From NCBI GenBank assembly GCA_005798335.1, contig SYJV01000148.1:1-64000 (forward strand): a stretch of DNA of 64,000 nucleotides, in the 5' to 3' direction. Numbering within the stretch: position 1 is the first letter of the stretch; the number at the start of each line of letters is the position of its first letter. The position numbers and the translations under genes were made by a program. The DNA comes from Planctomycetaceae bacterium. GTDB taxonomy: Bacteria > Planctomycetota > Planctomycetia > Pirellulales > Pirellulaceae. The notes beneath the pieces were generated by a model. It did not search any database, was not told the origin of the DNA, and saw nothing but the letters and a program-made list of their open reading frames with translations. Positions 27,651-45,328 of the stretch are shown here, in pieces.

Positions 27651-27659
27651 TCTCCCTCA

Positions 27660-28494: not shown

Positions 28495-28516
28495 GCTCCG
28501 ACCATGGGTTATCAGC

Positions 28517-28560
28517 TTATTCCATCCAAGTGCCTTCCAACGGTTACTTGGATGGAATAA
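28517..28560. repeat. Perfect hairpin between 28494 and the STAND gene
   Basis: TTATTCCATCCAAGT (28517-28531) pairs perfectly with ACTTGGATGGAATAA (28546-28560), a 15-bp stem with a 14-nt loop. It sits in the 136-nt gap before the STAND gene. No T-tract follows on the + strand, so it is more likely a mobile palindrome or mRNA structure than a terminator. Confidence 0.8.
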
Positions 28561-28630
28561 ATTTGGCAAAACGTGTCCCAGGTGGCTGGGGTTGAATGTA
28601 CTTCGCTACCTAGAACAACTTGAGTTCCTT

Positions 28631-31213
28631 ATGTCCGATCCGTTTCTGGTTCACCAACGTGTTTTGCAATTGATGACGACGGGCGATGTACGCCGTTATC
28701 TACACCCTGACTTTTTCCGCACGCGCCGATTATCGGGTGGCCAAGTGGAGAATGTCGATGCTGGAAACTGGGAGGCGGTGACGCGCGACACGTTGTTGCA
28801 AAAATTGAACGGAACCGATGGCACCGCGGCTAGACTCGTCCTCACGACGGACGCGGGAGTCGGCAAATCGGAAAACTTGTGCTGGCTGGAAAAGGAGTTG
28901 CTAACTCGGTGCCGAAGTCGCCAATCGTTCTTAATAAAACTGGGCGATCTGGCGGAGAAATTGGCTGGAAGGGAATTGTCGGCGGATCAGTTTCTCGAAA
29001 CGGTATTGACTCCTATCATGTTAGCGCGCGATTCGTCCAATACGATCGGCAACGCGACCGAACTCTTGCCGCGTCAAGTCACCAACTATCTTCGGCGGCT
29101 AGCGCTGTCGGGAAGATTGACTCTGCTGTTTGATGAACTCGACCAGGTACACCCTGCCAGCCCCGCAGTCCGAACTCTGCTCAACGTTGTGACGAGCCTT
29201 GCTAGGTTACCGATCGCGGTTGGTGGCAGGCCGTATGCGCTGCAAGATTGCTGGGAGAAGCTGTTTGCGAGCGGAGATTGGCAGTTTTTCCAGTTCGAGG
29301 GCTTTACGACTCAGCAACAGCGAACTTACTTGCGGGACCAAGACGGTCATGACAGGTACGAAGACTTACCCGAGGAAACGAAAACCGAATTACAGGATAT
29401 TCTGACGATCCCACGTGTGCTCAGTTATCTTCGAAAGCTCGATCGCCAGGACTTCGAATCGATTCACACGCCAAGCGATATCTATGAACGCGCGATCTAC
29501 CACTTGGTGGAATTCGGGCTGAAGAAAGTTAAAGCCTGCGAATTGGGAAGAACTGCGATTGTTTCGCAGGAATCTACTCAGTTGAACATATCGATCGATG
29601 GCTCCCAGGTCCGACAAGCCATCCGAATTCTCAGCGCCTTGGCTTGGGAAATGCTTTGGGTGCCCGAGCCCAATACGCCTGGGCGGATCGCCGAGCCAAG
29701 TGCGCACGCTATGGCTCCCAATTTCAATCGAATTCAGGGTGCCAGCGCCATCGACAAATTGAATCGCGCTGCGTTCGAGCGGCTGAAGAACCCGTACTTC
29801 GGCGATAGCGGATACAGCACATTCGAAAATGCAGTCGAGCGGTTGAAGTCGATGAATGAAGCCATCGAACAAGGTATCGTTGATTCGAAACGGATGGAGC
29901 AGATTCTGTGGCGCAACCGATCGCTACAAGAATTTCTGGCCGCGCGCGAGATTTGCTGGCACTGTACCGACGCGGATGTCGATCGACTGTGGCAATGGGT
30001 GCATCTGCATCATGACGCGCGAACTGATGCCTTTTATTGGATCTGGCGGTTCGCGGCGGAAATGTCCGACACGGAGATCGACCAGTCGGCTTGGGCCAAG
30101 GCAATGTCACCGCTCTACCGTGTCGGGGATGGGACTGCCGAGGGGACCAAACGCTCTAGCGAGATGCTATATCGCACATGGCCCCGGATGCAGGACAATG
30201 GCGTACCGTACGTCGAACAATTCCTATCCGAGTTCCAATCCGTCGTTGACGGCCATCAAGGCGACCGGCGCCAGTCTGGCGCACGCCACTTTCAAACGAT
30301 GTTCGCGCCGGTGCCCGCCGAACCGCGCTTTCGAATGGGCTCTCCAGATCACCAACAGGGCTTGCCCGACGACGAACGTGAGCGATGGGCACAATACCTG
30401 CGTTCCATCGTTGACGCGGAAGCCTATGCCAACGAGCGAGCAGACAAAGCCGGATATGTGCCAGGACCGCGCGGCGACGCCAATCGACAGTGGCTGCGCG
30501 ACAAATGGTTATCGATACTCCGTGGTGGAGGAATTGAAGAATTGGAGGCTTGGTGGTACGCAAAAGATGAAACGCCGCGCAAGGACTGGAAGGATGACTT
30601 GGCTAGCTTTCAGTTGAATCGATATCCGACGCTGCGAAGCTGGTACGAACTGTTCGATCCCGGACATGGCGATGGGAATCGCTGGTTCCACGCCGATCTG
30701 GGCAAACGCGCGCCTTCCGGCGACCATCCCGTGCTGTACGTCAACTGGTACGATGTCTGGGCATTTTGCACTTGGGCGTATTGGAATGGCCAAAGTTGTC
30801 GATTACCGCATGAAGACGAATGGGAGAAGGCGGCCAAGGCAGGCACGCGTTGGGATTGGGGATACTGGTGGGGAGACGAGGATGATCCGGAGAAACGCAC
30901 GGCGAACCTTAACATCAATCAAGGACATACTTCCAAGCCTGTGGATTTTGACACACTCAGTACAGGGCACCATCAGGGAAACCATACCAATCCCCTGACG
31001 TTCGTCGATATGCTTGGTAACCAATTGGAATGGACGGCTGACGCGTACAGTCCGCAATACCGGCGGGAGCATCGGTATCATGCAGCCTCGCGTGTTTGCC
31101 GTGGCGGGGCGTGGTTCTACAATCCAAGGGATGTCCGTTCTGCGTACCGTAGTGGCGGTCATCCCCCGTTCTTGCGCCTCTACGTAGGTTTTCGTGTGGC
31201 CAGGGCTTCTTAA
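28631..31213 (+). CDS. STAND/NACHT-like NTPase with C-terminal FGE/C-type-lectin domain; DGR target 1
   Basis: 860 aa from the ATG at 28631 (MSDPFLVHQRVLQL); the track start at 28436 overlaps the preceding gene and gives an unlikely N-terminus. Walker A: LTTDAGVGKSEN (~residue 75). Walker B: LTLLFDELDQVHPAS (~165), followed by PIAVGGRPYALQDCW, typical of NACHT/STAND ATPases. Residues ~556-860 form a formylglycine-generating-enzyme/sulfatase-modifying fold: FRMGSPDHQ, HPVLYVNWYDVWAFCTW, CRLPHEDEWEKAAKAGT, MLGNQLEWTAD and [20 protein letters not shown]. The last 40 residues coincide with VR1, so the exposed face of this fold is what is diversified. Such fusions are read as sensors: the variable domain binds a ligand and the NTPase switches. 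No effector domain is evident at the N-terminus. Cytoplasmic. Confidence 0.88.
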   Translation: MSDPFLVHQRVLQLMTTGDVRRYLHPDFFRTRRLSGGQVENVDAGNWEAVTRDTLLQKLNGTDGTAARLVLTTDAGVGKSENLCWLEKELLTRCRSRQSFLIKLGDLAEKLAGRELSADQFLETVLTPIMLARDSSNTIGNATELLPRQVTNYLRRLALSGRLTLLFDELDQVHPASPAVRTLLNVVTSLARLPIAVGGRPYALQDCWEKLFASGDWQFFQFEGFTTQQQRTYLRDQDGHDRYEDLPEETKTELQDILTIPRVLSYLRKLDRQDFESIHTPSDIYERAIYHLVEFGLKKVKACELGRTAIVSQESTQLNISIDGSQVRQAIRILSALAWEMLWVPEPNTPGRIAEPSAHAMAPNFNRIQGASAIDKLNRAAFERLKNPYFGDSGYSTFENAVERLKSMNEAIEQGIVDSKRMEQILWRNRSLQEFLAAREICWHCTDADVDRLWQWVHLHHDARTDAFYWIWRFAAEMSDTEIDQSAWAKAMSPLYRVGDGTAEGTKRSSEMLYRTWPRMQDNGVPYVEQFLSEFQSVVDGHQGDRRQSGARHFQTMFAPVPAEPRFRMGSPDHQQGLPDDERERWAQYLRSIVDAEAYANERADKAGYVPGPRGDANRQWLRDKWLSILRGGGIEELEAWWYAKDETPRKDWKDDLASFQLNRYPTLRSWYELFDPGHGDGNRWFHADLGKRAPSGDHPVLYVNWYDVWAFCTWAYWNGQSCRLPHEDEWEKAAKAGTRWDWGYWWGDEDDPEKRTANLNINQGHTSKPVDFDTLSTGHHQGNHTNPLTFVDMLGNQLEWTADAYSPQYRREHRYHAASRVCRGGAWFYNPRDVRSAYRSGGHPPFLRLYVGFRVARAS
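31083..31203 (+). repeat. DGR variable repeat VR1
   Basis: A 121-nt copy of the TR forming the 3' end of the first target gene. The first 32 nt (CAGCCTCGCGTGTTTGCCGT...) and the last ~19 nt (TAGGTTTTCGTGTGGCCAG) equal the TR. In between, 18 positions differ and every one is an adenine in the TR (to T, G or C). The changed codons alter the residues after RGGAW and before GFRVA. Confidence 0.95.
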
Positions 31214-31419: not shown

Positions 31420-31540
31420 CAGCCTCGCGTGTTTGCCGTGGCGGGGCGTGGAACAACAATCCAAGGAATGTCCGTTCTGCGAACCGTAATGACAATCATC
31501 CCACGAACTTGAACAACAACATAGGTTTTCGTGTGGCCAG
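31420..31540 (+). other. DGR template repeat (TR)
   Basis: Non-coding 121-nt template between the two target genes. It aligns without gaps to VR1 and VR2. Where the VRs differ, the TR has A: 28 adenines lie in the variable core (31452-31521), of which 18 are changed in VR1 and 19 in VR2. Read in the VR frame the core encodes runs of Asn ([15 protein letters not shown]), typical of DGR templates. It has no start codon or RBS of its own and is followed at once by the RT remnant, the usual TR-RT order. At 31541 the TR has T where both VRs have G, marking the end of matching and the likely initiation boundary. Confidence 0.95.
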
Positions 31541-31555
31541 TGCTTTGCGATGTAG

Positions 31556-31893: not shown

Positions 31894-34377
31894 TTAAGAA
31901 GCCCTGGCCACACGAAAACCTAGGTAGGTGTCCAAGAGCGTGGGAGGATGGCCAAGACGGTACGCAGAACGGACAGACCTCGGAAGGTAGTACCACGCCC
32001 CGCCACGGCAAACACGCGAGGCTGACGTGCGCGGCATCGATTGCCCCAATGTTTCCCGTGGGTCATCCGTGTAGGAATTGGAACACCATTCCTCTACGTT
32101 GCCGTAGATATCATGCAAGCCCCAACCGTTGGCTGCTAATTCGCCAACTTTTCGGGTGTAGCCTTTTTTCCAATCTTGCCCGAAATTCGCCACTTTGGCC
32201 AGCGCAGCTCGAACTTCATCGAGATTGGACTGGTCAGAGCAACAAAAACGGATACTCTGCGTGCCAGCCCGAGCCGCGAATTCCCATTCCAGCTCATGCG
32301 GCAGACGATAGATCTTGCGATGGATCCCATCTCCAGAATCTCTCGGACCGGTCAACCAACGGCAAAACATCACTGCTTGAAACCAATTGACATCAACCAC
32401 TGGATGCTGGTCCAGTTCGCCTACGTCGTTGACACGATCTTGGAATGATCGAAAGTGCTTGGGCTCGAACAGTTCGTACTGCTCGCTAGTCACTGGCGTG
32501 CGCGCCAATTCAAAGGGCGCAGCCAACTGTACATTGCGCTGTGTCTCGTCTCTCCACACACTCACCGTTGGGTTGTTCTCCTGGTCTGGATTAGAACCCG
32601 ATACAAACTTGAGATCGTCTGGTCCGCTGTATTGTGGCGGAATGGGTACAAAATCGCCCACCAATCGATGGGCGATGCTTCGGCAATTTTCGCCTTGAGT
32701 GCCTCGTAGAATCTCGCCTGAGAATTCCGCACAAAACTGGCGAAGCGTTTCCCGGGCGACCAGCGAATGCACGGGCAAGTTGCGAGGATTGGCTACATGG
32801 TAGGCCGCCAGCGATTCCATCAGGTCCCAACTGCGAAACAACATTTCACACGAACGCAGGCCAAGTTCTGGCCGTGGGGCGTACAGCGGCGCCAAAGCGC
32901 GAACCCAGTTCAGCGACGTGCGATGTTCCTTGGGCATCTCGGCCAAGAACCGCCACACTCGATACAGATGGTCGTCGTTCAATTCGTCATGTCCCGGCAA
33001 CCAAGGCGTTCGGCCAAATCGGGCGCAGTCCTCCGGCTCCGAGTGCTTGGCCAGATATCTCGCCACGAAAAACTCATGCAACGTCGGATCGCGAAAGTAG
33101 ATATCTGTCAATTGGTCTTCGATGTCCAGAAAGCAGTACTCCAACAACGAATTGGTTTCCCCGACTGTCACCAGTGCTTGATGCAGATCATCCACGGACG
33201 CAAACCGCAGCGCGGCCCCACGTTGCGTGAACAGGCGATGTTCGAAGTCGTACAATTCTCCTTCCGCGACACCCTCCCAGTTCTTTTCGTCAAACATTTG
33301 CATCGCCACTGCAGACAACAGGTGCAGACCACGTTCTTTCCAGTTGCCCCTCTGTGCGCCATCGACGGCGGATTGTCCTGCCGTTCGATCGACTGCCGCA
33401 TCCTCACTCCAAACGTGATCGATCACCGCCGCGTACAGTTCGCTGGGCGAATGGAGATCGTCCAAACGCACTTCGGGCAAGCGCTGCACCGCTTCTAACA
33501 TTCGCGGGTTTTCGAGCGATTCAGTGTCGAGCGAATTCAACTTGTCGAATTTCCACTTACCAAGATACGCGCGGCGTTGTCCTTCCTCGGTAAAGCCCTG
33601 CATCTGCGCGAATCGCCAGTTGCCGTTTTCGAACAAGTCCTTCCAATGCCGCCTGACCGAATGGGGTCGTCCCGCCACGACGGCTCGGCATTGCCCCGCG
33701 GTCTCGTTGAGAAACTTGCCCAGGGCCACGATCTTAGGATGATGTTTGTTGCCAACCTCACGATCGTGAGTCTGATCGAGACCGTCGATCAAGAAAGTCA
33801 CGCTGCCCGACGCGACCATGCGCCGGAGATAGTTGACGATGCGCGCATCGAGCCGTTCTCTCTCCGCCTTGCTCAATTCGCCTGGAAACTGAGAAGCTCG
33901 TAGGATTTCCAAGCACGGCCCCGAGAGAAAATCGTCCTTCGAAGTCGGCAAATCCTTCATCTGCAAGTACAGCCACAGATGGCGTCCCGACGAGTGTAGA
34001 GCAGTTGTCCCCAACTGCTTGTTCGAGTCCTCATTGTTCGCATCCAGAGCGCCTCCAAGAAACGCTTCAGCCCATTTCAACGTCGTCGTCTTGCCGATAC
34101 CGCCGTCGATTGTCAAGCACAATCGATGCAGTGAAGCGTCGGCGAACAGAGCTTCGCGCGTGGTCGCTTGCCAGCGATCCATCCAACGTTGGTAACCGTC
34201 CGCGAACCTCTCCAGGCCAGTCTCGCGCTGGTCTGGCTGGTCCTTCTTTCGTCGCTTCTCCAGCGCAATCCAGCGCGCTATGCGAAATGCCTCGGGTTTG
34301 AGGAACTCCTCCGCGCTAACACCATCGTCGAGCAACAAGAATTCCTGCGAACGGATAAACGGCAGCGGCTTTTCCAT
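31894..34377 (-). CDS. STAND/NACHT-like NTPase with C-terminal FGE/C-type-lectin domain; DGR target 2
   Basis: 827 aa from the ATG at 34377 (MEKPLPFIRSQEFLLL), which has GAGGA upstream; the track start at 34398 lacks this. Walker A: LTIDGGIGKTTTLKW (~residue 90). Walker B: VTFLIDGLDQTHD (~195), then CRAVVAGRPHSVRRHW. The C-terminal FGE-like domain starts near residue 570: PFELARTPVTSEQYELF, HPVVDVNWFQAVMFCRWL, YRLPHELEWEFAARAGT, DIYGNVEEWCSNSY and [20 protein letters not shown]. The general plan equals the first target, but outside the VR the two proteins are only distantly alike, so they are not a recent duplication. The gene converges on the first target with the TR between them. Upstream on the same strand lies a long gene run ending in a 284-nt gap with a large hairpin. 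Confidence 0.88.
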   Translation of the reverse strand: MEKPLPFIRSQEFLLLDDGVSAEEFLKPEAFRIARWIALEKRRKKDQPDQRETGLERFADGYQRWMDRWQATTREALFADASLHRLCLTIDGGIGKTTTLKWAEAFLGGALDANNEDSNKQLGTTALHSSGRHLWLYLQMKDLPTSKDDFLSGPCLEILRASQFPGELSKAERERLDARIVNYLRRMVASGSVTFLIDGLDQTHDREVGNKHHPKIVALGKFLNETAGQCRAVVAGRPHSVRRHWKDLFENGNWRFAQMQGFTEEGQRRAYLGKWKFDKLNSLDTESLENPRMLEAVQRLPEVRLDDLHSPSELYAAVIDHVWSEDAAVDRTAGQSAVDGAQRGNWKERGLHLLSAVAMQMFDEKNWEGVAEGELYDFEHRLFTQRGAALRFASVDDLHQALVTVGETNSLLEYCFLDIEDQLTDIYFRDPTLHEFFVARYLAKHSEPEDCARFGRTPWLPGHDELNDDHLYRVWRFLAEMPKEHRTSLNWVRALAPLYAPRPELGLRSCEMLFRSWDLMESLAAYHVANPRNLPVHSLVARETLRQFCAEFSGEILRGTQGENCRSIAHRLVGDFVPIPPQYSGPDDLKFVSGSNPDQENNPTVSVWRDETQRNVQLAAPFELARTPVTSEQYELFEPKHFRSFQDRVNDVGELDQHPVVDVNWFQAVMFCRWLTGPRDSGDGIHRKIYRLPHELEWEFAARAGTQSIRFCCSDQSNLDEVRAALAKVANFGQDWKKGYTRKVGELAANGWGLHDIYGNVEEWCSNSYTDDPRETLGQSMPRTSASRVCRGGAWYYLPRSVRSAYRLGHPPTLLDTYLGFRVARAS
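31904..32024 (-). repeat. DGR variable repeat VR2
   Basis: A 121-nt copy of the TR on the opposite strand, at the 3' end of the second target. By eye 19 positions differ from the TR and all are TR adenines. The pattern of changed positions differs from VR1 (for example AAT to CTT where VR1 keeps AAT), so the two were diversified independently. Confidence 0.95.
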
Positions 34378-34490
34378 GGTCCTCGAACAGTCTCGCACGA
34401 ATCGGGTTGAATCTTACGTACCAAACATGGTATTCCTAAGGGCGCCAGAAATAAATGAGCGCGGGCTGTGAGCGAAAGGGCGCTAAACCC

Positions 34491-34661: not shown

Positions 34662-35837
34662 CTAAGGTTGTGGCTGTTGTATGGGCTGGCCTTTGTCGTC
34701 GACCTCGTAGAACTTCGCATTCCACGCGTTCAATCGATTCTCGCGATGCTTGCGGGCGACGCGGGAAGACAGCAACAGTTCGTCAAAAGCTTCGCCGACT
34801 GTATCGACTTCCGCAATGTATTGAAGGTGCTGTGGATCGATAAGCTGTCGATCTGTTTTCTCTCTGCCTGCGGGCCGATTGTCCAATTGCTCTTTGGCAG
34901 CCACGATTAACAAACGACCATGCTGGACCGCAGCCGCGACTTTGGCCGGAAAGCCTGCGACAGGGAACAATCGAGTCATTCTGCCACACAGGTTCGACTT
35001 ATCCAGCATCGCCGTAACCGCCCCCATATCGTCAAGCGAATCGTCTCCGATGGCGGGTTCACCAGGTATCCCACCGGCCGCAGCCCACAATCCACACACA
35101 AAAGCTGCTTCGCACGATCGATCGTGCAATCGCTGGTAATTTGGGAAAGTACAGTTATCCACTGAATCCAACCACCATTGGAATCCGTCGCCGTTGGTAA
35201 AACTCGCAACCTGCCAAGCGTTCCGCGTACCGTCGAGAAATCCATCGTCTCCTTCCGATAGCGCCGTCAACCCGATCGAACCCGGCCGCAATTCAATCTC
35301 ACGCGCGTGATTGCAGCGGGCGATGTTCAACTCGCCCACCACGGCTGATTCGATTTGATTTGGAACGGCTGATCGGGTTTGACCTGGAGCGTTGTGACTT
35401 TCGCGCCCAGTGGAAACTAGCAGTATGCCAAGTCGCGATGTTTTGGGTAGCGAGTCTTCCGATTCAGTGGTGGACGCAACTTGCCCGCACAGCCGCTCTA
35501 AATGCGCAGTTAGTGCGCTGATTGTCGACTGAGCTTGCTGAACCGCTTGCCCATATTCTTCTTGCAATCCTTGGTATATAAACTCAAAATTGGATTTTGT
35601 TTTTGATTTTTCCTGAGCGGCATTCAGCGCCTCGTGGAAACTTCTCAGGAACTCTGAAAAGGCGTCCCTTCCACCGAAGCTGGCTACGGCCTGTTCCCGG
35701 GTCCTGGCGTCAAGATGCAGAATTCGCACGGCCCGCGCCAGCGTCGACGTCGGGCCGAGCATAGTGTGGCTGCTTTTCGACCATGTATCAAAATTGCCGA
35801 TCTGAAGCAACTCTTCCCTTTTTATCTTAAACTTCAC
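34662..35837 (-). CDS. Hypothetical protein, possible trypsin-like/caspase-like effector-position protein
   Basis: 391 aa from the GTG at 35837, with AAGGAG upstream inside the previous gene; the two overlap by 11 nt, implying coupling. The N-terminal ~130 residues are helical (FSEFLRSFHEALNAAQEKSK, GQAVQQAQSTISALTAHLER). The C-terminal half contains SAVVGELNIARCNHAREIEL, SFTNGDGFQWWLDSVDNCTF, SCEAAFVCGLWAAAGGIPG and a final DKGQPIQQPQP tail. I do not recognise the domain; no complete catalytic triad could be picked out. Cytoplasmic, no signal. Its place directly before a STAND gene would suit a downstream effector or regulator, but that is inference. Confidence 0.65.
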   Translation of the reverse strand: MKFKIKREELLQIGNFDTWSKSSHTMLGPTSTLARAVRILHLDARTREQAVASFGGRDAFSEFLRSFHEALNAAQEKSKTKSNFEFIYQGLQEEYGQAVQQAQSTISALTAHLERLCGQVASTTESEDSLPKTSRLGILLVSTGRESHNAPGQTRSAVPNQIESAVVGELNIARCNHAREIELRPGSIGLTALSEGDDGFLDGTRNAWQVASFTNGDGFQWWLDSVDNCTFPNYQRLHDRSCEAAFVCGLWAAAGGIPGEPAIGDDSLDDMGAVTAMLDKSNLCGRMTRLFPVAGFPAKVAAAVQHGRLLIVAAKEQLDNRPAGREKTDRQLIDPQHLQYIAEVDTVGEAFDELLLSSRVARKHRENRLNAWNAKFYEVDDKGQPIQQPQP

Positions 35838-36657
35838 AATCCGCTTTCTCCTTTTCCTTCCAGATGTCGATAAACTTGTCAATGCGTTCGACCTGCGCCC
35901 CATGTGCACAGCAGTCTTTCAATTCCTGGAGCATGGTTTCGGTGTAGTGCATCGTCGTATCTTCGCTGGCAGCCACAATGCGCGCCGTCAACTGCGAATG
36001 CACCGTCTGAATGACCAGTTGACGCAAGTCCAATTTCAGCCAATAGGAATTGGGGGATTCGTCGAGCATCACCGGTTGCATGGCGACCAGCCGATTATCT
36101 TGGCTGCGGTCGACTACGTAAATCAGACCGAAGCCGTATGGGACTTTTTCCTTTTTGGTTCGCAAGCGGTAGATCCCATCGCGAGAAATGTGCTCGAACT
36201 CGTCGGTCGTCGGAATGGAGTCGTCTTCGTCAACTGCGTCCGCTCCTTTCGCTTCGCCCTGGAAGACAACTGCCGGAAAGTCGGTCGCCTTATCCAAGAT
36301 GCCGCGCGTGGACTCTGCCAACAGATCGACGGCGGATTTGATGTGTTCCATGAGCCACCCAGGAGCACTTTTCCATTGAGAGATCAATTTGCGGATGCGT
36401 TCGTGGCGATCCTCTTGCTCCATGTCCAGATACATCTGGGTGAACTCGCGCGAGTATTGTGACAAGTCAGCCGTGACCGCATGCTCGACCGCTTCTGCCA
36501 TGACGATGGATGGATCGCGGTGCATGTCGGGATCGAGTTCGTCCAACCATTTGCGGATTCGAGGCTCCGTCAAAGACAACGCCTCCAATTCTTGGGCTCG
36601 CTGTGTGTCGAGCAAGTTGGCATAGTACAGAAAAACGTCTTTTTTAGTGAAGTTCAT
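35827..36657 (-). CDS. Hypothetical cytoplasmic protein coupled to sigma-like gene
   Basis: 276 aa, ATG with AAGGAG eight bases upstream. The first half is helical (FLYYANLLDTQRAQELEAL, EPRIRKWLDELDPDMHRDP) and could be a zinc-free anti-sigma-like or adaptor region, since it begins by addressing KWLDE...A.EH as in ECF partner proteins; this is weak. The second half has an acidic linker (DAVDEDDSIPTTDEFEHI) and a beta-rich region (YGFGLIYVVDRSQDNRLVAM). It follows the sigma-like gene by 53 nt and overlaps the next gene. Function unknown. Confidence 0.65.
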   Translation of the reverse strand: MNFTKKDVFLYYANLLDTQRAQELEALSLTEPRIRKWLDELDPDMHRDPSIVMAEAVEHAVTADLSQYSREFTQMYLDMEQEDRHERIRKLISQWKSAPGWLMEHIKSAVDLLAESTRGILDKATDFPAVVFQGEAKGADAVDEDDSIPTTDEFEHISRDGIYRLRTKKEKVPYGFGLIYVVDRSQDNRLVAMQPVMLDESPNSYWLKLDLRQLVIQTVHSQLTARIVAASEDTTMHYTETMLQELKDCCAHGAQVERIDKFIDIWKEKEKADCEV

Positions 36658-36710
36658 AATTAATCTCCTTGAAAAATGTTTGAGCTGTTTCGTGGTTGAG
36701 GGGGACGAGA

Positions 36711-37478
36711 TTAGCGGCGTTTCTTGCGAGGATTCTGAAAATAGGACTGGAGAATCTGATTGAGCTGGTCGAGCGTAAGCCCAAACGAGCGGGCAACCTC
36801 CATTTCGGTTTCATCATCCCCTTCGCCGCTCTTTAGCAACCATTCGCGAATGACTCTTTGCTCGAACTCAGGAAGATCTTTCAATCTTTCTTCGAGTGTG
36901 ATGGCAATCTGATCGGGACGCGGCGACGACTTACCAGCGTAGTCGCGCGGTGTTTGCATCGGATCAGATTCGGCACCAAACGCACCGGTGAGCGATGACA
37001 CCTGTTCTTTCTGGCTTTTCAAGTAATAGCAGATTGACCGCTCGACCGTTTTGGCGAAGAACTTTTTGCTCCAGAATCGAGCCCAATGCGTGCTGCCAGC
37101 GTGCTTCTTTTCCCATTCCTTCGCGCTTCGCAACACCAAGAATACGCAGTACTGCACGATAATCGGGTAGAAATCCATGAACCGTAACCCGCGCGATTTG
37201 TCCGGAGGAAGGTTTTTTACGACACTCCCTTGGAATATTGGGTCGCTAGCAAGTCGGTAATAGAATTCTCTAATTGCGGGATAGGGATAATTGCCATGTT
37301 CATCTGGCGAGAAGATCTCCCGTAACATGTTATCGATGGTCTCAATCTGTGCGGCGCTGGCTAAACCGTACAACTTGCAGATGATATCCCATTCAACAAT
37401 CAGCCTGCGAAGTAGATTCCAATCTTTCGACCAATGGTCCGGAGGGAAATCTTCAGGTTGGAATTCAATGTCACGCAT
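36711..37478 (-). CDS. Sigma-70-like protein (divergent, C-terminal region-4-like HTH)
   Basis: 255 aa. The C-terminal ~60 residues, LEERLKDLPEFEQRVIREWL followed by EMEVARSFGLTLDQLNQILQSYF, have the spacing of sigma region 4 (helix, turn, recognition helix). The central AKEWEKKHAGSTHWARFWSK then TVERSICYYL could be a degenerate region 2. It is not a standard ECF sigma factor: the N-terminal 110 residues are unusual. It may control transcription of the following genes, including the second STAND gene. A DNA-binding protein unrelated to sigma factors is the main alternative. Confidence 0.55.
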   Translation of the reverse strand: MRDIEFQPEDFPPDHWSKDWNLLRRLIVEWDIICKLYGLASAAQIETIDNMLREIFSPDEHGNYPYPAIREFYYRLASDPIFQGSVVKNLPPDKSRGLRFMDFYPIIVQYCVFLVLRSAKEWEKKHAGSTHWARFWSKKFFAKTVERSICYYLKSQKEQVSSLTGAFGAESDPMQTPRDYAGKSSPRPDQIAITLEERLKDLPEFEQRVIREWLLKSGEGDDETEMEVARSFGLTLDQLNQILQSYFQNPRKKRR

Positions 37479-37631
37479 TGATTGGGCTCCCTTTAATACG
37501 CCGGAGATTTGGAATTACTGAAAACGCGATATCTATCTGAAATGCGTTTGCCGTCCCATGATGCGCGCGAAATCATTGTGAAATTGCAAGAAACTTGTGT
37601 AGGATTGAATAAGTCATTTGTATGCAAAGGT

Positions 37632-38999
37632 TTACGGCGATGAATTTATTCCACACCACTTGCATTCGGGCAGGCCGCTCACAGCACGGTCAGCCACGAG
37701 GAGTCCATCGGGACGCCAATCTACGCGACTCCAACGGCTGGTCGTTGAACGGCCCGTCAGGGTATCGATCAGGTGCTGAATGCCGATCGATACGGTGATC
37801 GCGTTCAAGGTGACCAACGAGCCGGCTCGCTGTTGGCGAAAGTCGATCGACGGTCGGATGGGGCGAACGCCCGGCGGCAATCGCAGTTCGAGTTCGGCAT
37901 CCTCTCGATCCGCAATCCCTCCCACGCATGCAGCGCACCCTTGGCGTGGCAGGAACAGTCGCACGTCACCAGACATCGTAAGTTCACCGCTTTCCGTGCG
38001 CTGAACGCTCGTACCGATATCCAAGTGAATCTTGTTCCAGCAATTTGCCAACTGCGCGGCCAGCAATACTGGCGTTCCGTGATCGACACAGGTAACCAGC
38101 ACGTCGGCGTTCTGAGCTCGCTCAGCCACTCTTAAATCGGTAGCGGTACTTGGGATACCCGTGACGGCAATATCATCGCAATACCGCGTGATTTCGTTGG
38201 CCAGCGCAGAGACCTTCTTATTGCCAATATCTCCCAAGTCGCCACCGAGCATCGCGTCGAAGTTGTGGATTTCCAGCACGTCGGGATCCACGAGCGTCAG
38301 TTTTCCAATTCCCAATGTCGCCAATTGGCGAGCCGCTACCGATCCGTTACGCGAGGCGCCGATTACCATCACGTGCATATCACGCAAAGACTCGACAAAC
38401 TTCGATCCCAGCATATTGGTCAGTCGGCTCCACCGGGCTGGGATTTTGGAAGGCGTTTGTGGATCGTTGATGGGCGAATTCCTCAAAAGAAGATAGGGGC
38501 CTCCCGCAATCTTTAGAGTGCCAATTGGAGACACGTCAGTGCCGTGAAACAACCACGCGCGCCACTGGCCTCGCCGATTACCGAATCCAAAGCTCAATAC
38601 CACCCACGATTGCCCCGGAAGCGGCAAAAAGATTTCTCGCAATTCCTTTTCGGAGCGATAGGGTGTATCGTCCGAACCACCAACCGCCACTATCCAATTC
38701 GCATTCAACGGTCGCTCGATGCCCAACGGAACCTTTACAGTGCGGGTCATGCCACCAACGGAAAGGCGAAAGGTATCATGCACAAATCGTTTGACCAATC
38801 GGCCGACCATTACCGCATCAGGATTCATCGCCAGTGTGCGCACGACGTTAGCAAAATCTACGCGAGCTATTTCCAACACGGTTTGATCCGAATATGCGAC
38901 CACGTGAGCGACTCTCCGATGAAATCGAAACAGGAATGGAACACTACTGACTAAAAGGCGTATGCGGAACGAGTGCCGAATTCCGTAAAAAGATGTCAT
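37632..38999 (-). CDS. E1/ThiF/MoeB-like ubiquitin-activating-type enzyme
   Basis: 455 aa. The C-terminal ~260 residues form an E1-like Rossmann domain: MHVMVIGASRNGSVAARQLATLGIGKLTLVDPDVLEIHN (nucleotide-binding loop and the Asp that binds Mg-ATP), then DVLVTCVDHGTPVLLAAQLA. Zinc-type Cys pairs are seen as CAAC (~residue 357) and CKWC (~449). The N-terminal ~195 residues do not show a JAB or E2 signature; they have beta-rich segments (KRFVHDTFRLSVGGMTRTV, GQSWVVLSFGFGNRRGQW). Such proteins adenylate ubiquitin-like or peptide C-termini. No ubiquitin-like partner was found nearby. Its setting among membrane and STAND genes suggests a conflict-system role, unproven. Confidence 0.8.
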   Translation of the reverse strand: MTSFYGIRHSFRIRLLVSSVPFLFRFHRRVAHVVAYSDQTVLEIARVDFANVVRTLAMNPDAVMVGRLVKRFVHDTFRLSVGGMTRTVKVPLGIERPLNANWIVAVGGSDDTPYRSEKELREIFLPLPGQSWVVLSFGFGNRRGQWRAWLFHGTDVSPIGTLKIAGGPYLLLRNSPINDPQTPSKIPARWSRLTNMLGSKFVESLRDMHVMVIGASRNGSVAARQLATLGIGKLTLVDPDVLEIHNFDAMLGGDLGDIGNKKVSALANEITRYCDDIAVTGIPSTATDLRVAERAQNADVLVTCVDHGTPVLLAAQLANCWNKIHLDIGTSVQRTESGELTMSGDVRLFLPRQGCAACVGGIADREDAELELRLPPGVRPIRPSIDFRQQRAGSLVTLNAITVSIGIQHLIDTLTGRSTTSRWSRVDWRPDGLLVADRAVSGLPECKWCGINSSP

Positions 39000-39086
39000 T
39001 CGAGAAATTACGTGCGGAACAATACTAGAACCGGCACACGAGCATCGTTGAGTTGCTCAATGTCGTTCAGATGTCATTAATCGCCC

Positions 39087-39281
39087 TTAGTTTAACATCG
39101 CCATCAACAAGGTTAGCGCCGTCACGGCACTCGACAGCCCGATAACACGCGGCCAACGGATATCCGGGCCGAGCGTCGAGTATTCAACCATCGGGCCATC
39201 CTTGCGGAGATAGCACCAACCATCAATCGTTACGATTGTCCAGCCTTCCGGAAGTTTTGAATTGCGATTGAAGAACGACAT
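39087..39281 (-). CDS. Small C-tail-anchored membrane protein
   Basis: 64 aa from the ATG at 39281, chosen for GGGAGG eight bases upstream; the 39296 start in the track has none. It reads MSFFNRNSKLPEGWTIVTID, then a Trp/Tyr-rich short strand region, and ends in a C-terminal membrane helix (VIGLSSAVTALTLLMAML). It starts the block of genes just ahead of the E1-like enzyme (87-nt gap). Function unknown. Confidence 0.65.
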   Translation of the reverse strand: MSFFNRNSKLPEGWTIVTIDGWCYLRKDGPMVEYSTLGPDIRWPRVIGLSSAVTALTLLMAMLN

Positions 39282-39470
39282 GTTTAAGCCTCCCATGGAA
39301 CTCGACGGATTGGAAGTTGTTTTGCCACGCTAGTTGAAAGGCAGTTTTGGGTGATAGGACTTAAGAGAATCGAGATGTCGTGCGAGGATTGTCTGCGGTC
39401 GATATGATCCACCGGACGAGCCGGTGGGATTGGGATCTGATTTGGCCATCAGTTTGCTACGTCGCGACAG

Positions 39471-40289
39471 TTAGTTGGCGCGGGCTAGTTCGCGATCGCT
39501 TGGCGTGTCGTCGAGGGAACGGGTGATGCGGGCGATGAGGTCGTCCGTGGCTGGGGCAACGTCGGATGCGCTGTGCCGTATGCTCATCAGCGCCGATAGT
39601 CCGGCCAGTTGGCCATCGATTCTGTCGCTGATGGAGGTCAGTTCGCCTCGCAAATCGTCGAATGCAGGATCGGTGGTGCCAATTTCGCCCAATTCGTTGG
39701 TCCAGGATTGCATGTCTTTGGCTACCGCAATCTTGTCCTGCAGATCTCGACAATAGTCGTGCAGTTCGCGCAATCGCTGCGGTGCTTGCTCGCAGGCAAG
39801 GGTCAAGTGGTTGAGACGACTTTGACAGATTTCGAGCAATTGAGATAACGACTTCTCGCGGCTGACCGCCATGTCGATTACACGCTCAGAATGTTGAATC
39901 GAGCTTTGTACTTGCTCATTGGACATGGATGCGCCGGTGGATGTTAACACGGTATCACCGGCGACTAATTTACGGCGAATCGTATGCATTTGACCGCGGT
40001 GTTCGGAGATCGTACAGCGCGCGCTCGCCAAACGCTCGTCGACGCGTCCGACCAACGACTGTAACATCACTCGCTGTTGAGCTTGCTCGACGATCTGCGA
40101 TTTGTATTCGGCGATCTTGGCTATTACGGAGTTCAGTTGGAACTCGTGTTTACCGACCAGGTCTATCAACTTTTCAGCAATGGAGTCCTTGCCCGTCTTG
40201 AACCATGGTCCGAAATTCTTGCCGAGCGTCGCGACCAACGAAACGACGACGACAACAACGGATGCGGACGTGTATAGAAGCGCTTTCAT
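39471..40289 (-). CDS. Membrane-anchored coiled-coil protein
   Basis: 272 aa from the ATG at 40289; AGGAA lies upstream and the protein then starts with a membrane helix (LLYTSASVVVVVVSLVATLG). The rest is almost wholly helical: EYKSQIVEQAQQRVMLQSLV, SSIQHSERVIDMAVSREKSL and QRLRELHDYCRDLQDKIAVA. There is some resemblance in plan to PspA-like or periplasmic coiled-coil proteins, but no family signature. Either the coil faces the periplasm (signal anchor) or the cytoplasm. It belongs to the run with the ExbB/ExbD-like genes. Confidence 0.7.
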   Translation of the reverse strand: MKALLYTSASVVVVVVSLVATLGKNFGPWFKTGKDSIAEKLIDLVGKHEFQLNSVIAKIAEYKSQIVEQAQQRVMLQSLVGRVDERLASARCTISEHRGQMHTIRRKLVAGDTVLTSTGASMSNEQVQSSIQHSERVIDMAVSREKSLSQLLEICQSRLNHLTLACEQAPQRLRELHDYCRDLQDKIAVAKDMQSWTNELGEIGTTDPAFDDLRGELTSISDRIDGQLAGLSALMSIRHSASDVAPATDDLIARITRSLDDTPSDRELARAN

Positions 40290-40377
40290 GTTTTGTGTTC
40301 CTGTTCGGATTGAGATAGCTTGGTTCGTAAACTTGGAGGTTCTTTTCCGATTCGTAAAGCAATAACCGTACTGATCC

Positions 40378-40430
40378 GCGGGGCAAGCCTGCGGCATTGA
40401 CGGTTACAGGCTGGAAGCCTATTCCGCGGG
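40378..40430. repeat. Imperfect palindrome near lipoprotein stop
   Basis: CCGCGG occurs at both ends, with AAGCCTG and CAGGCT pairing inside and further complementary bases around GGCTTCCAGCCTGT. It overlaps the end of the 40419-40919 gene and looks related to the palindrome arms at 34491-34611. Confidence 0.45.
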
Positions 40431-40919
40431 TTGGATGCGCAGAGCTTCGTCGCGGGTGGTATGCCAGCGATCGCGCACGCGCTGGATTATGGCTAACGAT
40501 CTTGCGGTGCGTTCCTGGTATTGATTCGCCAGTTCGTCGATCGTCTCACGCTCGATGCGATTGAGATCGCTCAGGATTTGTTCGATTCTCCGCAGACGCT
40601 CGCGAGCAACAATGTTCAACATTTGCTGTTCGATCCGCTCCGACCATTGCTGTAGCTCCAGCACGTTGGGCTGCGAAGTCAGGGAGGTGGACGGGGCTGT
40701 ATTGGTCGGGCCGGTGGGCGTAGTGGTTGGAGTGGTGGTTGGCTGGTTAAGCTGTTCTGGTGGAGCATGTTTATCCTCGCTCTCTTGATTGAACGAAACG
40801 AAATCGATGGGTCTGATTGATGGCTCGCGTTTTTGAGTACAGCCGCTCGTCGCGATGAGGGTCAGCACAAGACAGAGTCCCGACTTTGCGGTTCGGATGT
40901 GGCGCACTGAAAAACGCAT
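40419..40919 (-). CDS. Lipoprotein with helical body
   Basis: 166 aa. The signal sequence GLCLVLTLIATSGC ends in a lipobox, giving lipidation at Cys ~27. A Thr/Pro-rich linker (TTTPTTTPTGPTNTAPSTS) separates it from a C-terminal helical domain (LQQWSERIEQQMLNIVAR, RLRRIEQILSDLNRIER). Likely attached to a membrane on the periplasmic side with the helical part reaching away. It sits between the ExbD-like gene and the coiled-coil gene. Function unknown. Confidence 0.75.
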   Translation of the reverse strand: MRFSVRHIRTAKSGLCLVLTLIATSGCTQKREPSIRPIDFVSFNQESEDKHAPPEQLNQPTTTPTTTPTGPTNTAPSTSLTSQPNVLELQQWSERIEQQMLNIVARERLRRIEQILSDLNRIERETIDELANQYQERTARSLAIIQRVRDRWHTTRDEALRIQPAE

Positions 40920-41087
40920 GGCGGTATTCCCTGGGGTTGGGTTAGATTATGTGAATCGAAAGTGGACTGGGAGTTGGCTCGTTAACCAGTGCAGGCTGTG
41001 AGCATGGAACTGGATCAACCTTGCTAAGTGGGAAATGTGGTGCTCCATACGCTACTCCTCCGACGCCCGAGGCTAGCGCCTTTCGGT

Positions 41088-41498
41088 TCACTGGGGGGCG
41101 GGCTCGCGGGTGACGACGAACAATCTGTCGGCAACCTTGGCTTGCTGGGCTAACAAACTGATGCGCATGAGTTCCGCGAGCGGGCCTTGACCACGGTCGT
41201 CGCAACTTGCTCTCACAATGATCTGCGCCGTCGGGGCCAGTTGGTGAAATTGATGTTCGAGCGCCGCCCATTCCACCGGGCGACCTGCCACACTTACGCC
41301 TTGGCTCGATAACTCCACGATGAATGGTTCGCAGGGAGGTGCTTGTTTTGATTGTGTTTCCTGACGGGCAACGATTGGCGCTGAGTCGTAATAGCATTGG
41401 TTTTGGCTGGTGACGAGAACCAGCGGTATTGCGAACAAGTCGATCATGACGTGCCACGTGGCTCCGCCGAGAGTCGCACGGCGATTTCTACTTTTCAT
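41088..41498 (-). CDS. ExbD/TolR-like protein
   Basis: 136 aa. One N-terminal membrane helix, WHVMIDLFAIPLVLVTSQ, contains the Asp (VMID) typical of the ExbD/TolR proton path. The periplasmic part keeps the family order: FIVELSSQGVSVAGRPVEW (beta strand and turn), AQIIVRASCDDRGQGPLAEL (matching vvIrAD...), then AQQAKVADRLFVVTREP. ExbD works with ExbB in a proton-driven inner-membrane complex. Its start overlaps the ExbB-like stop by 4 nt (ATGA), as in many exbBD pairs. Confidence 0.82.
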   Translation of the reverse strand: MKSRNRRATLGGATWHVMIDLFAIPLVLVTSQNQCYYDSAPIVARQETQSKQAPPCEPFIVELSSQGVSVAGRPVEWAALEHQFHQLAPTAQIIVRASCDDRGQGPLAELMRISLLAQQAKVADRLFVVTREPAPQ

Positions 41499-42280
41499 AC
41501 CGCACCTCCTGCATAAGGTTCTGGTTCGGTTGCTAGTTCATCCGCAGCGGCCTTTTGCACGTGGGATGCTGTAAGCAGTAAAGGCTCGGAGCTGGCGGTT
41601 TTGATCAGCGATGCCTTTGGTCTCGGCGATTTCTGAGTCTTGGATGTATGACTGCCAACCATTGGGATCGAGGGCGGATTCTGAACGGAATCGGCATGAG
41701 GTTGCAGCGTGGGGAGGCGTTGACCAGCGGTAACATCGCGGAATTCAAACTGCTGAAGCGTGTCGAGCAATTCATCGATCTGCTGAAGGACTTGATCGCG
41801 TCGCGGTTGAGTCAAGCCCACGTAGACGATTGCTGGTAAACCAACGACGATGCCGGCAAACGTAGTCTGGAAGGCGATATTCAGACCGATGTGGTTCATG
41901 GTAGGTGCGACCAGGAAGCCGGCGACTGTTCCGAGCAGCCCGAGCATCGTCGAGCAACCGGACACCAGGTGCAGTATGTTCATGAATCGATCCATGCTCT
42001 TGGCCACGTCATCGACCACCGCCGCGATACTTGAGTACGAGTCACCCTCAAGGCAAGCGGATAGCCAACTGCCATCGGAGGAAAGCTCGAATCTTTCTTT
42101 GGCAGCTGGCCAAGATCCAGGCTGTCGCAATTTTTCTAGGAGTTCGCGGAATGGTCGGCTGGCACAAGGTCGGCAAGCAAAATCAATAAACATCAGTCGG
42201 TAAACGATTACGTACCAGTTGGCGAAGTGCAGGGCCGCCAACGCACCATAAATTCCAATGGAAATAGTTGTCGAGTTCAT
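41495..42280 (-). CDS. MotA/TolQ/ExbB-like proton channel protein
   Basis: 261 aa from the ATG at 42280 (MNSTTISIGIYGALAALHFA), which has GGAGA upstream and abuts the previous gene; the track start at 42406 would overlap it by ~120 nt. The TolQ/ExbB core shows in LGLLGTVAGFLVAPTM and NIAFQTTFAGIVVGLPAIVY (the two conserved helices). A first helix is at residues ~6-27. Beyond the core comes a ~75-aa cytoplasmic tail rich in Pro, Ser and Lys. Such channels power TonB- or motor-like systems and also ZorAB-type defence; which one applies here cannot be told. Confidence 0.85.
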   Translation of the reverse strand: MNSTTISIGIYGALAALHFANWYVIVYRLMFIDFACRPCASRPFRELLEKLRQPGSWPAAKERFELSSDGSWLSACLEGDSYSSIAAVVDDVAKSMDRFMNILHLVSGCSTMLGLLGTVAGFLVAPTMNHIGLNIAFQTTFAGIVVGLPAIVYVGLTQPRRDQVLQQIDELLDTLQQFEFRDVTAGQRLPTLQPHADSVQNPPSIPMVGSHTSKTQKSPRPKASLIKTASSEPLLLTASHVQKAAADELATEPEPYAGGAV

Positions 42281-42284
42281 TGGT

Positions 42285-43103
42285 CTAAGGTCTCCGAGAG
42301 GAAGATCGTGAGGATTTAGGGGAGTAGTCGGTCCAACGAAACATGGGATGCCTATGGTTAATTTCCGCGTGATAGACCCAGTCGGCGCGCGGCGCGCTGA
42401 GGCCAATTCGTTTGAGATACTCGAACAGCGACCGATACATTTCGATTTCGGTTTTCATCGAAAAGATGATGGACGCACGGTATTGATCGTCGTCGGCTAG
42501 ACCAAAAACGCGCAGTTGGGTCGAACGGTAATTGAATGGCAGATCTTGTAGAGCAACCGCGGCCTGCAGGCTTCCCGTAGGCTGCGTCGCGAATCCCCAG
42601 CGATCAAAGACGCGCGTTTGATTCAAGCCTTGGATGATGAACTCATTGGCCAAGTCGGTAACCTTGACGCCGCTGCCAAGTTCCAAGCGGATCTCTGACT
42701 TCCCTTGTTCAACTTCCATCTTGTACCGGGCCAGAACTTCCGCTTGCTCGTCTTGTGACATCCGTTCAATCGTCTTTTGACGTGGTTCAACACGATTGGC
42801 GGTGGAAACAGTTTGGATGTTGTCACAGGTAGGGTCTTCTTGCTCTGCCAGTTCCGCAGCCATCGGCGGTTTGGTAACAGTTTGCTCGGCTCGTGTTTCC
42901 GTGCGCGGACCGACCTTTTCGACCACTCCTAGGTTTGGGACGGCAACCGCGCTCGCAAGTTTCTTGCTGCTGAGGTCAGGTGCGATTGATCGGACCACAT
43001 CAGTGTTAACGCTGGACTGGTAACTGAATAGGAATAAGGCCAGCGGCAGGTGAAGCAACGTCACGAGGCTGGCTGCAGTTAGGGATCGAAATAGCTCGCT
43101 CAT
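42285..43103 (-). CDS. Single-pass membrane protein in TonB position
   Basis: 272 aa. A short cytoplasmic start and one helix (LVTLLHLPLALFLFSYQ) resemble the topology of TonB/TolA. Then comes a long Glu/Lys/Thr-rich linker (AEQTVTKPPMAAELAEQEDP) and a C-terminal domain (YRSTQLRVFGLADDDQYRAS, MYRSLFEYLKRIGLS). No TonB family motif (YP) is seen. Gene order (this protein, ExbB-like, ExbD-like) is compatible with a TonB-like energy transducer. Start codon overlaps the preceding stop by 4 nt (ATGA). Confidence 0.65.
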   Translation of the reverse strand: MSELFRSLTAASLVTLLHLPLALFLFSYQSSVNTDVVRSIAPDLSSKKLASAVAVPNLGVVEKVGPRTETRAEQTVTKPPMAAELAEQEDPTCDNIQTVSTANRVEPRQKTIERMSQDEQAEVLARYKMEVEQGKSEIRLELGSGVKVTDLANEFIIQGLNQTRVFDRWGFATQPTGSLQAAVALQDLPFNYRSTQLRVFGLADDDQYRASIIFSMKTEIEMYRSLFEYLKRIGLSAPRADWVYHAEINHRHPMFRWTDYSPKSSRSSSRRP

Positions 43104-43954
43104 CGTGATCGGTCCTTCCGATTGGCGGTGGATGCCGTGGCAGTCGGCACAGGAAATTTAATGCCCAGATCCTTTAAGAGATCCGCAAAGCTCTTCTGGG
43201 GCCTTGGTTTGTCGGTGGGCGATTTATCAGTCGTTAATTTGTCGGCGGTGTGGTTGGGCAACGCCCGTTCAAATTCGAATCGCAATGCCGAATCGTCAGG
43301 CAACTCAAACCCCACGAAGTCCCGAGTCGATGACTTGGCAATTTCCATTCGATCCGTGATCGCTTGCTCAGTAGTCACAGCATCTCGAATTCGATGGTCG
43401 AGTTTGGCGACATGCTCGCGCACTCGATCGATCCGTCGCTGCAGGTTTCGGATAGATTCCCCACTGGCCTCGACGATCGCACGCGAGCGAGCGTTGGCCG
43501 AAGCTGAATCGCCTTGCGACTGTTGCTCGACCTGTGCAAGCTGCGTCGTCAGACGTGCTCGGAGTTGTTCCAACAAGCTCTCGTCGGATTCCAGGTCCTT
43601 GGCTAGTTCGACGCGCAGCCGCTGCCAGGCCGCTCTGCGCTGTTTCGACTGCTCAATGGCGGGTCCAAATCGAAGTTGGCTGAGTAGTTCTTGGCTGATC
43701 GTTTCGGCTTTGACGGACATCTCCTCTGGCTTAAGCGCGTCGAGTTCCTTGAGGAAGTCGGCCGCTTCTCGAGCGTTGGTGTCGGCATTGTTCTTTGGTT
43801 TTGCGGGCGTTGAAGCTGGGCCAGAGGTTGCATCAGACGCCAACAGGACATACTTGTTTGGAGAACGAGTGCTGATCGTGGACTGAGCATCGGCGGTGTA
43901 ACAACTGCCGAGCAGTAGAAGAGTGGTCAACCAGGTAATGAAACGGCGGAACAT
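43100..43954 (-). CDS. Exported coiled-coil protein
   Basis: 284 aa from the ATG at 43954, which has AAGGAGAA upstream; the track start (44002) does not. Signal peptide MFRRFITWLTTLLLLGSCYTADAQS; LLGSC may also be a lipobox. The mature protein is helical throughout: AWQRLRVELAKDLESDESLL, LRARLTTQLAQVEQQSQG and RNLQRRIDRVREHVAKLDHR. The C-terminal end is Lys/Asp/Thr rich. It probably lies in the periplasm with the lipoproteins and the ExbD-like protein. Function unknown. Confidence 0.75.
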   Translation of the reverse strand: MFRRFITWLTTLLLLGSCYTADAQSTISTRSPNKYVLLASDATSGPASTPAKPKNNADTNAREAADFLKELDALKPEEMSVKAETISQELLSQLRFGPAIEQSKQRRAAWQRLRVELAKDLESDESLLEQLRARLTTQLAQVEQQSQGDSASANARSRAIVEASGESIRNLQRRIDRVREHVAKLDHRIRDAVTTEQAITDRMEIAKSSTRDFVGFELPDDSALRFEFERALPNHTADKLTTDKSPTDKPRPQKSFADLLKDLGIKFPVPTATASTANRKDRSR

Positions 43955-44035
43955 TGGATTCTCCTTGGACTGTTGTTTTGGAAAGAAGGTGGTCTTGAAC
44001 ACGAAAATGTGGGCAATCCGAGTGTTAGCGATCGG

Positions 44036-44938
44036 TCATTTAGTTTTTTGCTTTAACAGGGCCAGAATCTTGGCTTCCATTTCGGAGCTCAACTTAGGTA
44101 AAGGCAATTCTGGCGGGAGGGCGGGCGCCGCCTCGGGAACGATTGGGTCATTCGGTCGACCTTTGAGGTTCTGAATGGACGGTGCCAGGGTCTGGATTGC
44201 TAGCGAGAGGCGTTGAGCTTCTTGTTGTAGGAGCGCGGAATCCTTGGCCAATCGATTGCGACGGATAGCCTCGACTTGACGGAGTGTCTCTTCGCGTGCC
44301 AGGTCCGCGAAAGTCTTGGCGGCGCGGTCCAGGTCCAGCAGGCGATTCAGCGTGATTTCTAGAGATTTCTCAGTGGAAGCGATGGCCTTGAGATCATCAA
44401 ACAATTCGTCTCGTCGTTCGATTTTCTTCGCAAGCAGCAAGACACTTCCTTGATCACCCATCAATTTCCCGTCCACCGCACGGACTTTTGAAAGCAACTC
44501 ATGAATCTCGCTTTCCACAACGGCGGTTTGCTCCTCAATTACCGCAGATTGGCTGCGAACTCGGGCCTGCTGCACCAGCGTAGTCACTTGGAAGTTCCCA
44601 ATCGCGCCGCTGGTTAGAACTATCGCGCCAGCGATTGGTTTGAGCGTTTGTAGCTTGACGAGCGCTATCTTGTTGGCAGCTTCCGGTGTGCCGTTGGCAG
44701 ATTTGTTCAAACGCTGGACGATTTCGTCGTACAGTTGCGACGAGCTGGCCAAGGACTCGATTTGATCCGTCAATTGACGTAGATCGAGCTGGCCGATCTT
44801 GTCTTGCTCCAGAGGCCGAACGATCAAGTCTGGGCGGTCGTTTTGCTGAGCGTTTGCGACTCCGTTGGTAACCAATACCATTGCGGTACCGATCAGCAAC
44901 ACAAGGCTTGCCTGAGTTCTCAATCTTCTTATTGACAT
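44036..44938 (-). CDS. Exported coiled-coil protein
   Basis: 300 aa. Sec signal peptide ASLVLLIGTAMVLVTNGVANAQQ with cleavage near NAQ. The mature part is helical: RQLTDQIESLASSSQLYDEI, VEERTAVVESEIHELL-type segments, and ETLRQVEAIRRNRLAKDSAL. It resembles the neighbouring 43100-43954 protein in plan and may form a hetero-oligomer with it, a guess from similar length and helical content. No enzyme motif. It is 81 nt upstream of that gene. Confidence 0.75.
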   Translation of the reverse strand: MSIRRLRTQASLVLLIGTAMVLVTNGVANAQQNDRPDLIVRPLEQDKIGQLDLRQLTDQIESLASSSQLYDEIVQRLNKSANGTPEAANKIALVKLQTLKPIAGAIVLTSGAIGNFQVTTLVQQARVRSQSAVIEEQTAVVESEIHELLSKVRAVDGKLMGDQGSVLLLAKKIERRDELFDDLKAIASTEKSLEITLNRLLDLDRAAKTFADLAREETLRQVEAIRRNRLAKDSALLQQEAQRLSLAIQTLAPSIQNLKGRPNDPIVPEAAPALPPELPLPKLSSEMEAKILALLKQKTK

Positions 44939-45022
44939 ACATTTTCTCCAGATTCAATGAGTAAAGAGCGTCCATCCGTTGACCGAATTCGGTATCCGGC
45001 CAACCCAACTGTGTTGATATAT

Positions 45023-45328
45023 TCAGAAAGGCACTTTGAGCCAGTTGTGACTGTCCCGGGCCAACAATTCTCGAACTGCGGACTCGATCGCCACGTCAAC
45101 TTGGTCGCGTTCATTGGGTTCCACAGCCTTGAATGCCGAGAGCGGCGCTTCAGCAACATGCTCCACACCAGCTTTTGCCTTTACTTCAAAGGTGGAAACG
45201 GTCTGTGTATCCGCGGCAGGAGTTTTTTCCTCAATTTCACCCTGACGTGAAACCAACTCCGACTTGAGTTCAAGCCGGTTGCAGCCGATCGCAAGTGCCA
45301 TCCATGCCAAAAAGAGACGAAAGCGCAC
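45023..45328 (-). CDS. Small lipoprotein
   Basis: 101 aa. FLAWMALAIGC is a lipoprotein signal with the lipidated Cys at position 16. The mature part is acidic and hydrophilic (ELVSRQGEIEEKTPAADTQ, VEPNERDQVDVAIESAVREL) without known domain. It heads the exported-protein run (85-nt gap to the 44036 gene). Confidence 0.7.
   Translation of the reverse strand: MRFRLFLAWMALAIGCNRLELKSELVSRQGEIEEKTPAADTQTVSTFEVKAKAGVEHVAEAPLSAFKAVEPNERDQVDVAIESAVRELLARDSHNWLKVPF

Follow-up and report, generated by a model that had tools for sequence, protein, structure and literature searches.

The DNA analysed here, hereafter the window, is a stretch of 64,000 nucleotides from the genome of a Planctomycetaceae bacterium (GCA_005798335.1, contig SYJV01000148.1, positions 1 to 64,000), and is part of a 69-kb contig in an assembly of 8.46 Mb, 558 contigs and 97% completeness. 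It carries a run of about 13 open reading frames (ORFs), all on the minus strand from 45328 down to 34662 as originally predicted, together with two receptor genes and a gene for a small protein ending in aspartate. Genes of the run are lettered from downstream to upstream (A, B, C, D, E, then F-M), and the receptors are N and O. The features are as follows:

28255..28494, plus strand: small Asp-ended protein of 79 aa, ending ...RKRELARYD (profile of E1-adjacent peptides, E 1.9e-13)
28436..31213, plus strand: O, NACHT/STAND protein with a C-terminal FGE (C-type-lectin-like) domain, DGR target (Pfam FGE-sulfatase 1.2e-26, NACHT 1e-3)
31083..31208, plus strand: variable repeat 1, at the 3' end of O (19 mismatches to the template repeat, 18 at template A)
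31420..31545, plus strand: template repeat (TR), 126 bp, with Avd and reverse transcriptase absent beside it
31894..34398, minus strand: N, second NACHT/STAND-FGE protein, DGR target (Pfam FGE 2.4e-37, NACHT 2.9e-3)
31899-32024: variable repeat of N (20 mismatches to the TR, 19 at template A)
34662..35909, minus strand: A, Lon-like (S16) Ser-Lys protease domain, Ser265/Lys323 (profile and structure matches to Lon)
35827..36657, minus strand: B, anti-sigma-like or adaptor protein in a conserved operon position (21.9 bits to a profile of same-position proteins from five other loci)
36711..37478, minus strand: C, degenerate sigma-70-like protein (NCBIfam ECF E 0.07; phmmer 24.3 bits to the same-position protein of locus L126)
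37632..38999, minus strand: D, E1-like adenylating enzyme with an N-terminal degenerate JAB domain, BubCD-like (Pfam ThiF 3.5e-22)
39087..39296, minus strand: E, tail-anchored peptide of 69 aa with a C-terminal Asn, in the position that the Asp-ended protein occupies in other loci
39471..45328, minus strand: F-M, ExbB/ExbD/TonB-position/coiled-coil/lipoprotein block, a neighbour on the same strand and outside the conserved module
41088-41498, minus strand: ExbD-like ORF of 136 aa, read from sequence and overlapping the ExbB ORF
41495-42406, minus strand: ExbB-like protein (Pfam 8.8e-8), likely start Met at about 42280

The original prediction took everything between 34662 and 45328 as one system. 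This was not confirmed: on homology across E1 loci the run splits, and it is in fact two things, with genes A-D (34.7-39.0 kb) belonging with the receptors to a recurrent module, and the ExbB/ExbD/coiled-coil block (39.5-45.3 kb) standing apart. The recurrent module associates DGR-diversified NACHT/STAND-FGE receptors with the Lon-like A, with B and C, with D (E1 with degenerate JAB) and with the Asp-ended protein, whose gene lies in the window just upstream of O, outside 34662-45328, and had been overlooked.

Both receptors bear the signature of DGR mutagenesis. The mismatches of each variable repeat (VR) fall at template A sites with a binomial P of about 1e-10, and away from these sites the TR and VR copies are almost identical, suggesting a recent diversification; genome-wide, the repeat exists in three copies only, one TR and two VRs. 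The true start of O is probably the ATG at about 28631. TR/VR pairs with the same A bias were found in four loci (the window, L058, L060 and L130, the last combining one TR with three VRs), and DGR cassettes adjoin the E1 operon in L058, L060 and L130, with a DGR-type reverse transcriptase (RT) and bAvd in the first two and an RT in the third. Among the six RVT_1 matches of the window's genome, some of them partial or broken in an incomplete assembly, the DGR-type RT motif GxxxSQ was not seen, so that the receptors of the window may no longer be diversified; alternatively, a DGR reverse transcriptase may act on them in trans. In the receptor sequences, read by eye, neither a signal peptide nor a membrane anchor is obvious, and the ligands are therefore probably cytoplasmic. 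A large RT protein of another locus in the window's genome (L068, 3914-6790, contig C549) reads like an RT fused with Cas1-type sequence, and possibly serves CRISPR spacer acquisition from RNA.

Gene A encodes a Lon-like, putatively active protease, a relationship overlooked in the original prediction. Searched alone, A has no significant Pfam match. A profile of 13 members of its family, run against PDB sequences, gives Lon as the best hit (3.2e-7) and as 41 of the 45 matches, two family members match Pfam Lon_C, and the structural model of A resembles Lon proteolytic domains (Foldseek 1.8e-8; VIA Z 18.6 over 168 residues), with a pLDDT of 56 overall and of 70-90 in much of the Lon-matching domain. 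The dyad is kept throughout the family: Ser265 is present in 12/12 members with coverage of the site, and Lys323 in 13/13. Pfam finds no AAA match in A, which would thus differ from LonA/LonB in having no AAA+ domain of its own, NACHT being present in the partner or in the fusion instead. In other loci the A-type domain adjoins STAND-FGE proteins or is fused to them, up to the combination of Lon, STAND and FGE in a single protein (L060, two genes; L087; L128, two genes; L129).

Two genes, B and C, separate A from the E1. The sigma-like nature announced for C (36711-37478) holds weakly in the window, on the matches listed above, and clearer sigma70_r4/ECF matches occupy the same position in L018, L019, L020, L024, L025 and L058. 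In several E1 loci, a sigma-70/ECF protein follows the E1 and precedes a protein whose N-terminus has an anti-sigma-like pattern, the two parts forming one polypeptide in L018 and L019 (ASD-sigma fusions). This pattern, the operon position and these fusions make B a candidate anti-sigma factor. B and C resemble their positional counterparts weakly: profiles from more loci helped to reveal the resemblance, hhalign of single sequences was uninformative, and B used as a single query had no relatives, on plasmids either. The L024 locus (713-4549) is arranged differently: a sigma factor comes after the E1 and precedes a Ser/Thr kinase with a weak zf-HC2 N-terminus. It lies on a contig with no FGE or Lon-like matches, and possibly represents an alternative output.

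The identification of D as an E1-like enzyme is upheld. Of 149 family genomes, 11 encode relatives of D, that of the window having two copies; relatives also exist in G341, which belongs to another family of the class. Its AlphaFold model (pLDDT 81) matches Citrobacter BubCD over the full length (Z 31.5, 382 residues aligned; Foldseek E 2.6e-24 to 7e-23), and the ATP-site residues R192, D238, N246, K262 and D306 are invariant in the D family, as are four zinc Cys. In the N-domain of this family, no His/Asp/Glu/Cys column that could form a JAB metal site is conserved at 70%. The E1 domain has no widely conserved Cys beyond the four zinc ligands and C304, and most members lack an arginine at position 249, which by comparison with MoeB would correspond to a catalytic arginine usual in E1 enzymes. 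Neither a conjugation target nor a ligase is visible for D, and in the operon Pfam and PADLOC recognise the E1 only, with no E2, ubiquitin-like or cyclase partner; CBASS and Bil membership was rejected on these scans. A second conflict-type cluster lies beside the E1 locus of L015 (4396-10636), and comprises a TPR protein, another ThiF E1, a weak RWD-like protein, a Prok-JAB protein and a coiled-coil protein.

What could be the substrate of such an enzyme? Eight loci have an ORF of 60-100 aa upstream of the E1, encoding a charged helix and then a C-terminal Asp. A profile of these E1-adjacent ORFs recovered three further copies, one being that of the window (28255-28494), and Asp is C-terminal in 11/11 copies. 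Strong matches across 149 genomes are confined to nine genomes, all E1-positive (hypergeometric 7e-13, a value that is partly circular, the profile having been built from most of those copies). The sole other match below 1e-5 in this set, in G101, adjoins what we take, on our own reading of the sequence, to be an IS21-type element. A blind search of 397 genomes of the class with the small protein alone returned seven new genomes: an E1 lies nearby in every one (E 1.7e-127 or better), Asp is again C-terminal in 7/7, and Lon-like and STAND-FGE genes accompany it in six, the contig of the seventh being just 3 kb long. No relative of the small protein was found in Pfam, NCBIfam or PDB sequences; it has no match to Pfam Pup, and ends in Asp as opposed to the GGE/GGQ of Pup. 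We propose this protein, observed in association with the E1, as the substrate that the enzyme would activate.

The association extends to the receptors. An FGE gene lies at 10 kb or less from the E1 in 8 of 14 loci, against an expectation of 0.38 derived from the FGE counts of whole genomes (P 4e-10), and in 6/12 when each genome is counted once (P 2e-7); together with the blind search, this bears out the link that had been suggested between the E1 and diversified STAND receptors. Gene order is also shared, running from E1 to sigma, B-like protein and Lon in the window, L020, L025, L125, L126 and L130, and likewise in L019 with sigma fused to B, STAND-FGE coming next in most of the ordered loci. 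A conflict role of the module is plausible.

Several pieces of the module are known. Passages of PMC10907252 and PMC7159879 predict STAND conflict systems diversified by DGRs, and the STAND/NACHT-CLec systems described there resemble the module in that a STAND NTPase carries the FGE/CLec variable domain, that targets are frequently two in number, and that a peptidase is encoded nearby. The peptidases named there are of the trypsin, caspase or S8 type, whereas that of the module is Lon-like and sometimes receptor-fused; to the plan given in those passages, the module adds sigma- and anti-sigma-like genes, an E1 and its Asp-ended partner. Calp consists of the CRISPR-associated Lon protease CalpL, the anti-sigma CalpT and the ECF sigma CalpS, for which proteolytic sigma release was proposed (PMC11417357). 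The module has a Lon-type protease, a candidate anti-sigma (by position and pattern) and a sigma-like protein (weak in the window, clear elsewhere) in a comparable set, but the sensor, a cyclic-oligoadenylate-binding SAVED domain in Calp, would here be a diversified STAND receptor, and Pfam scans found no SAVED domain on A. Bub (BubCD, PDB 9ea4/9eav) shares the JAB-E1 fusion and the fold of D; unlike Bub, the D family has no conserved JAB metal-ligand columns, its partner would be short, helical and Asp-ended, and no BubA/BubB-like partner was seen beside D (no match in A-C, by Pfam scan only). What appears to be new is the combination of these pieces and the small protein, for neither of which a description was found in open-licence literature or family libraries.

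Taken together, the best explanation of the whole, to which we give tentatively a probability of about 0.42, is a sensing module in which a receptor would act through a Lon-like protease on the release of a sigma factor, with the E1 and its Asp-ended partner added. The conserved core would sense something variable: DGR mutagenesis varies the lectin-fold tip of the NACHT/STAND receptors, as the A-specific TR/VR differences of four loci show, and ligand binding would lead to STAND oligomerisation and switch on A, as the observed fusions suggest. By analogy with CalpL, CalpT and CalpS, A would then cut the anti-sigma-like B and free the sigma-like C, which would direct transcription of a response regulon or of a suicide programme. 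D, for its part, would adenylate the small protein at its C-terminal Asp, and the activated product, which could be a tag on proteins or else an AMP-peptide signal, would be used in the same response. Against this explanation stand the weak similarity of B and C to their counterparts, the DGR-type RT missing from the window's assembly, the arginine that most E1 members lack, and the want of a visible conjugation target or ligase. If the explanation is true, DGR receptors, for whose output there have been only guesses until now, gain a testable wiring from receptor to Lon-like protease, anti-sigma and sigma, and the E1 and Asp-ended protein become a defined enzyme-substrate pair that could be a new tag or signal. 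The stronger claim of a new tagging class under retroelement-rewritten receptors, in which an E1 with a retired JAB would activate a short helical protein without a beta-grasp fold, at its C-terminal Asp, for attachment to targets, seems to us doubtful.

Pup and MccA are short peptides that undergo ATP-dependent activation at a C-terminal acidic or amide residue, Pup relying on PafA and not on an E1. MccA has 7 residues and ends in Asn (PMC12250964). The small protein described here would similarly be an ATP-activated short substrate, but has no similarity to Pfam or NCBIfam families. Could the E1 and the Asp-ended protein then make a nucleotide-peptide toxin or second messenger, as in microcin C, and no tag, with the protease/sigma part controlling output? 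MccB, an enzyme of ThiF type, adenylates its Asn-ended peptide without a thioester (PMC12250964), which would suit the scarcity of conserved Cys in the E1 domain of D, and the two genes are adjacent as in precursor/enzyme operons. We nevertheless consider such a product unlikely, as D matches BubCD over its whole length with the JAB-type N-domain included, the length of the small proteins (60-80 residues) and their conserved charged helix are closer to those of a Pup-type tag, and neither an exporter nor an immunity gene was seen.

Another alternative concerns what is sensed. Instead of opposing phages, the module might regulate cell contact through self/non-self or surface recognition, with diversified receptors reading partners and sigma C setting the response, and DGR-STAND systems are indeed said, in passages of PMC10907252 and PMC7159879, to be concentrated in multicellular or aggregating bacteria. 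Receptors with probably cytoplasmic ligands fit such a role poorly, and the sporadic distribution of D (11/149) is that of mobile defence-type genes, making this alternative distinctly unlikely compared with the sensing module proposed above.

The ExbB-ExbD-like pair, the TonB-position protein, the lipoproteins and the coiled-coil exported proteins of F-M are all present as ORFs. The "membrane-energised" part of the original prediction fails the refutation test that the prediction itself had set: F-M have no homologues in 20 other E1 loci, and ExbB has no relatives among 149 genomes of the family (E 1e-8) or among 392 of the phylum (E 1e-6), in searches whose first-look filter may miss remote ones, nor in a further search of genome contigs, the ExbBD block being likewise unmatched among plasmids. 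After these family, phylum, contig, plasmid and E1-locus searches the block was rejected as part of the conserved module, and it is a neighbouring set of genes or, at most, an addition peculiar to the lineage. It is most improbable that all genes of 34662-45328 work as a single system, an ExbBD proton channel driving or sensing something at the envelope and feeding the E1/STAND part, since the shared strand, the overlapping starts, a promoter/terminator scan with no signal above chance (including between the two blocks) and an envelope-type pair near the E1 in two other loci are set against the missing homologues and against gaps of about 150-175 bp, from F to E and from D to C. That pair, an exported vWA-PKD protein with a Tubulin_2 GTPase near the E1/DGR module (L020, 2995-9349; L058, 1410-7780), makes variable envelope modules beside the E1 possible. 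The comparison with Zorya (ZorAB), which shares a MotA/ExbB-type channel gene, does not fit either: PADLOC assigns zero families, ZorA and ZorB included, to the ExbB and ExbD proteins, and membership was rejected. An IS630-type transposase (46465-47499) lies immediately upstream of the block.

On the other side of the locus, 0.3 kb ahead of the small Asp-ended gene, the stretch 27577-27937 holds a tRNA-Val overlapped by the C-terminal remnant of an apparent tyrosine integrase (27596-27937, minus strand). A search for a second attachment repeat of this tRNA found none; the overlapping remnant suggests that an island may have been inserted there. Farther away, a 156-nt direct repeat occurs three times within 18709-19758, two of the copies being 99% identical.
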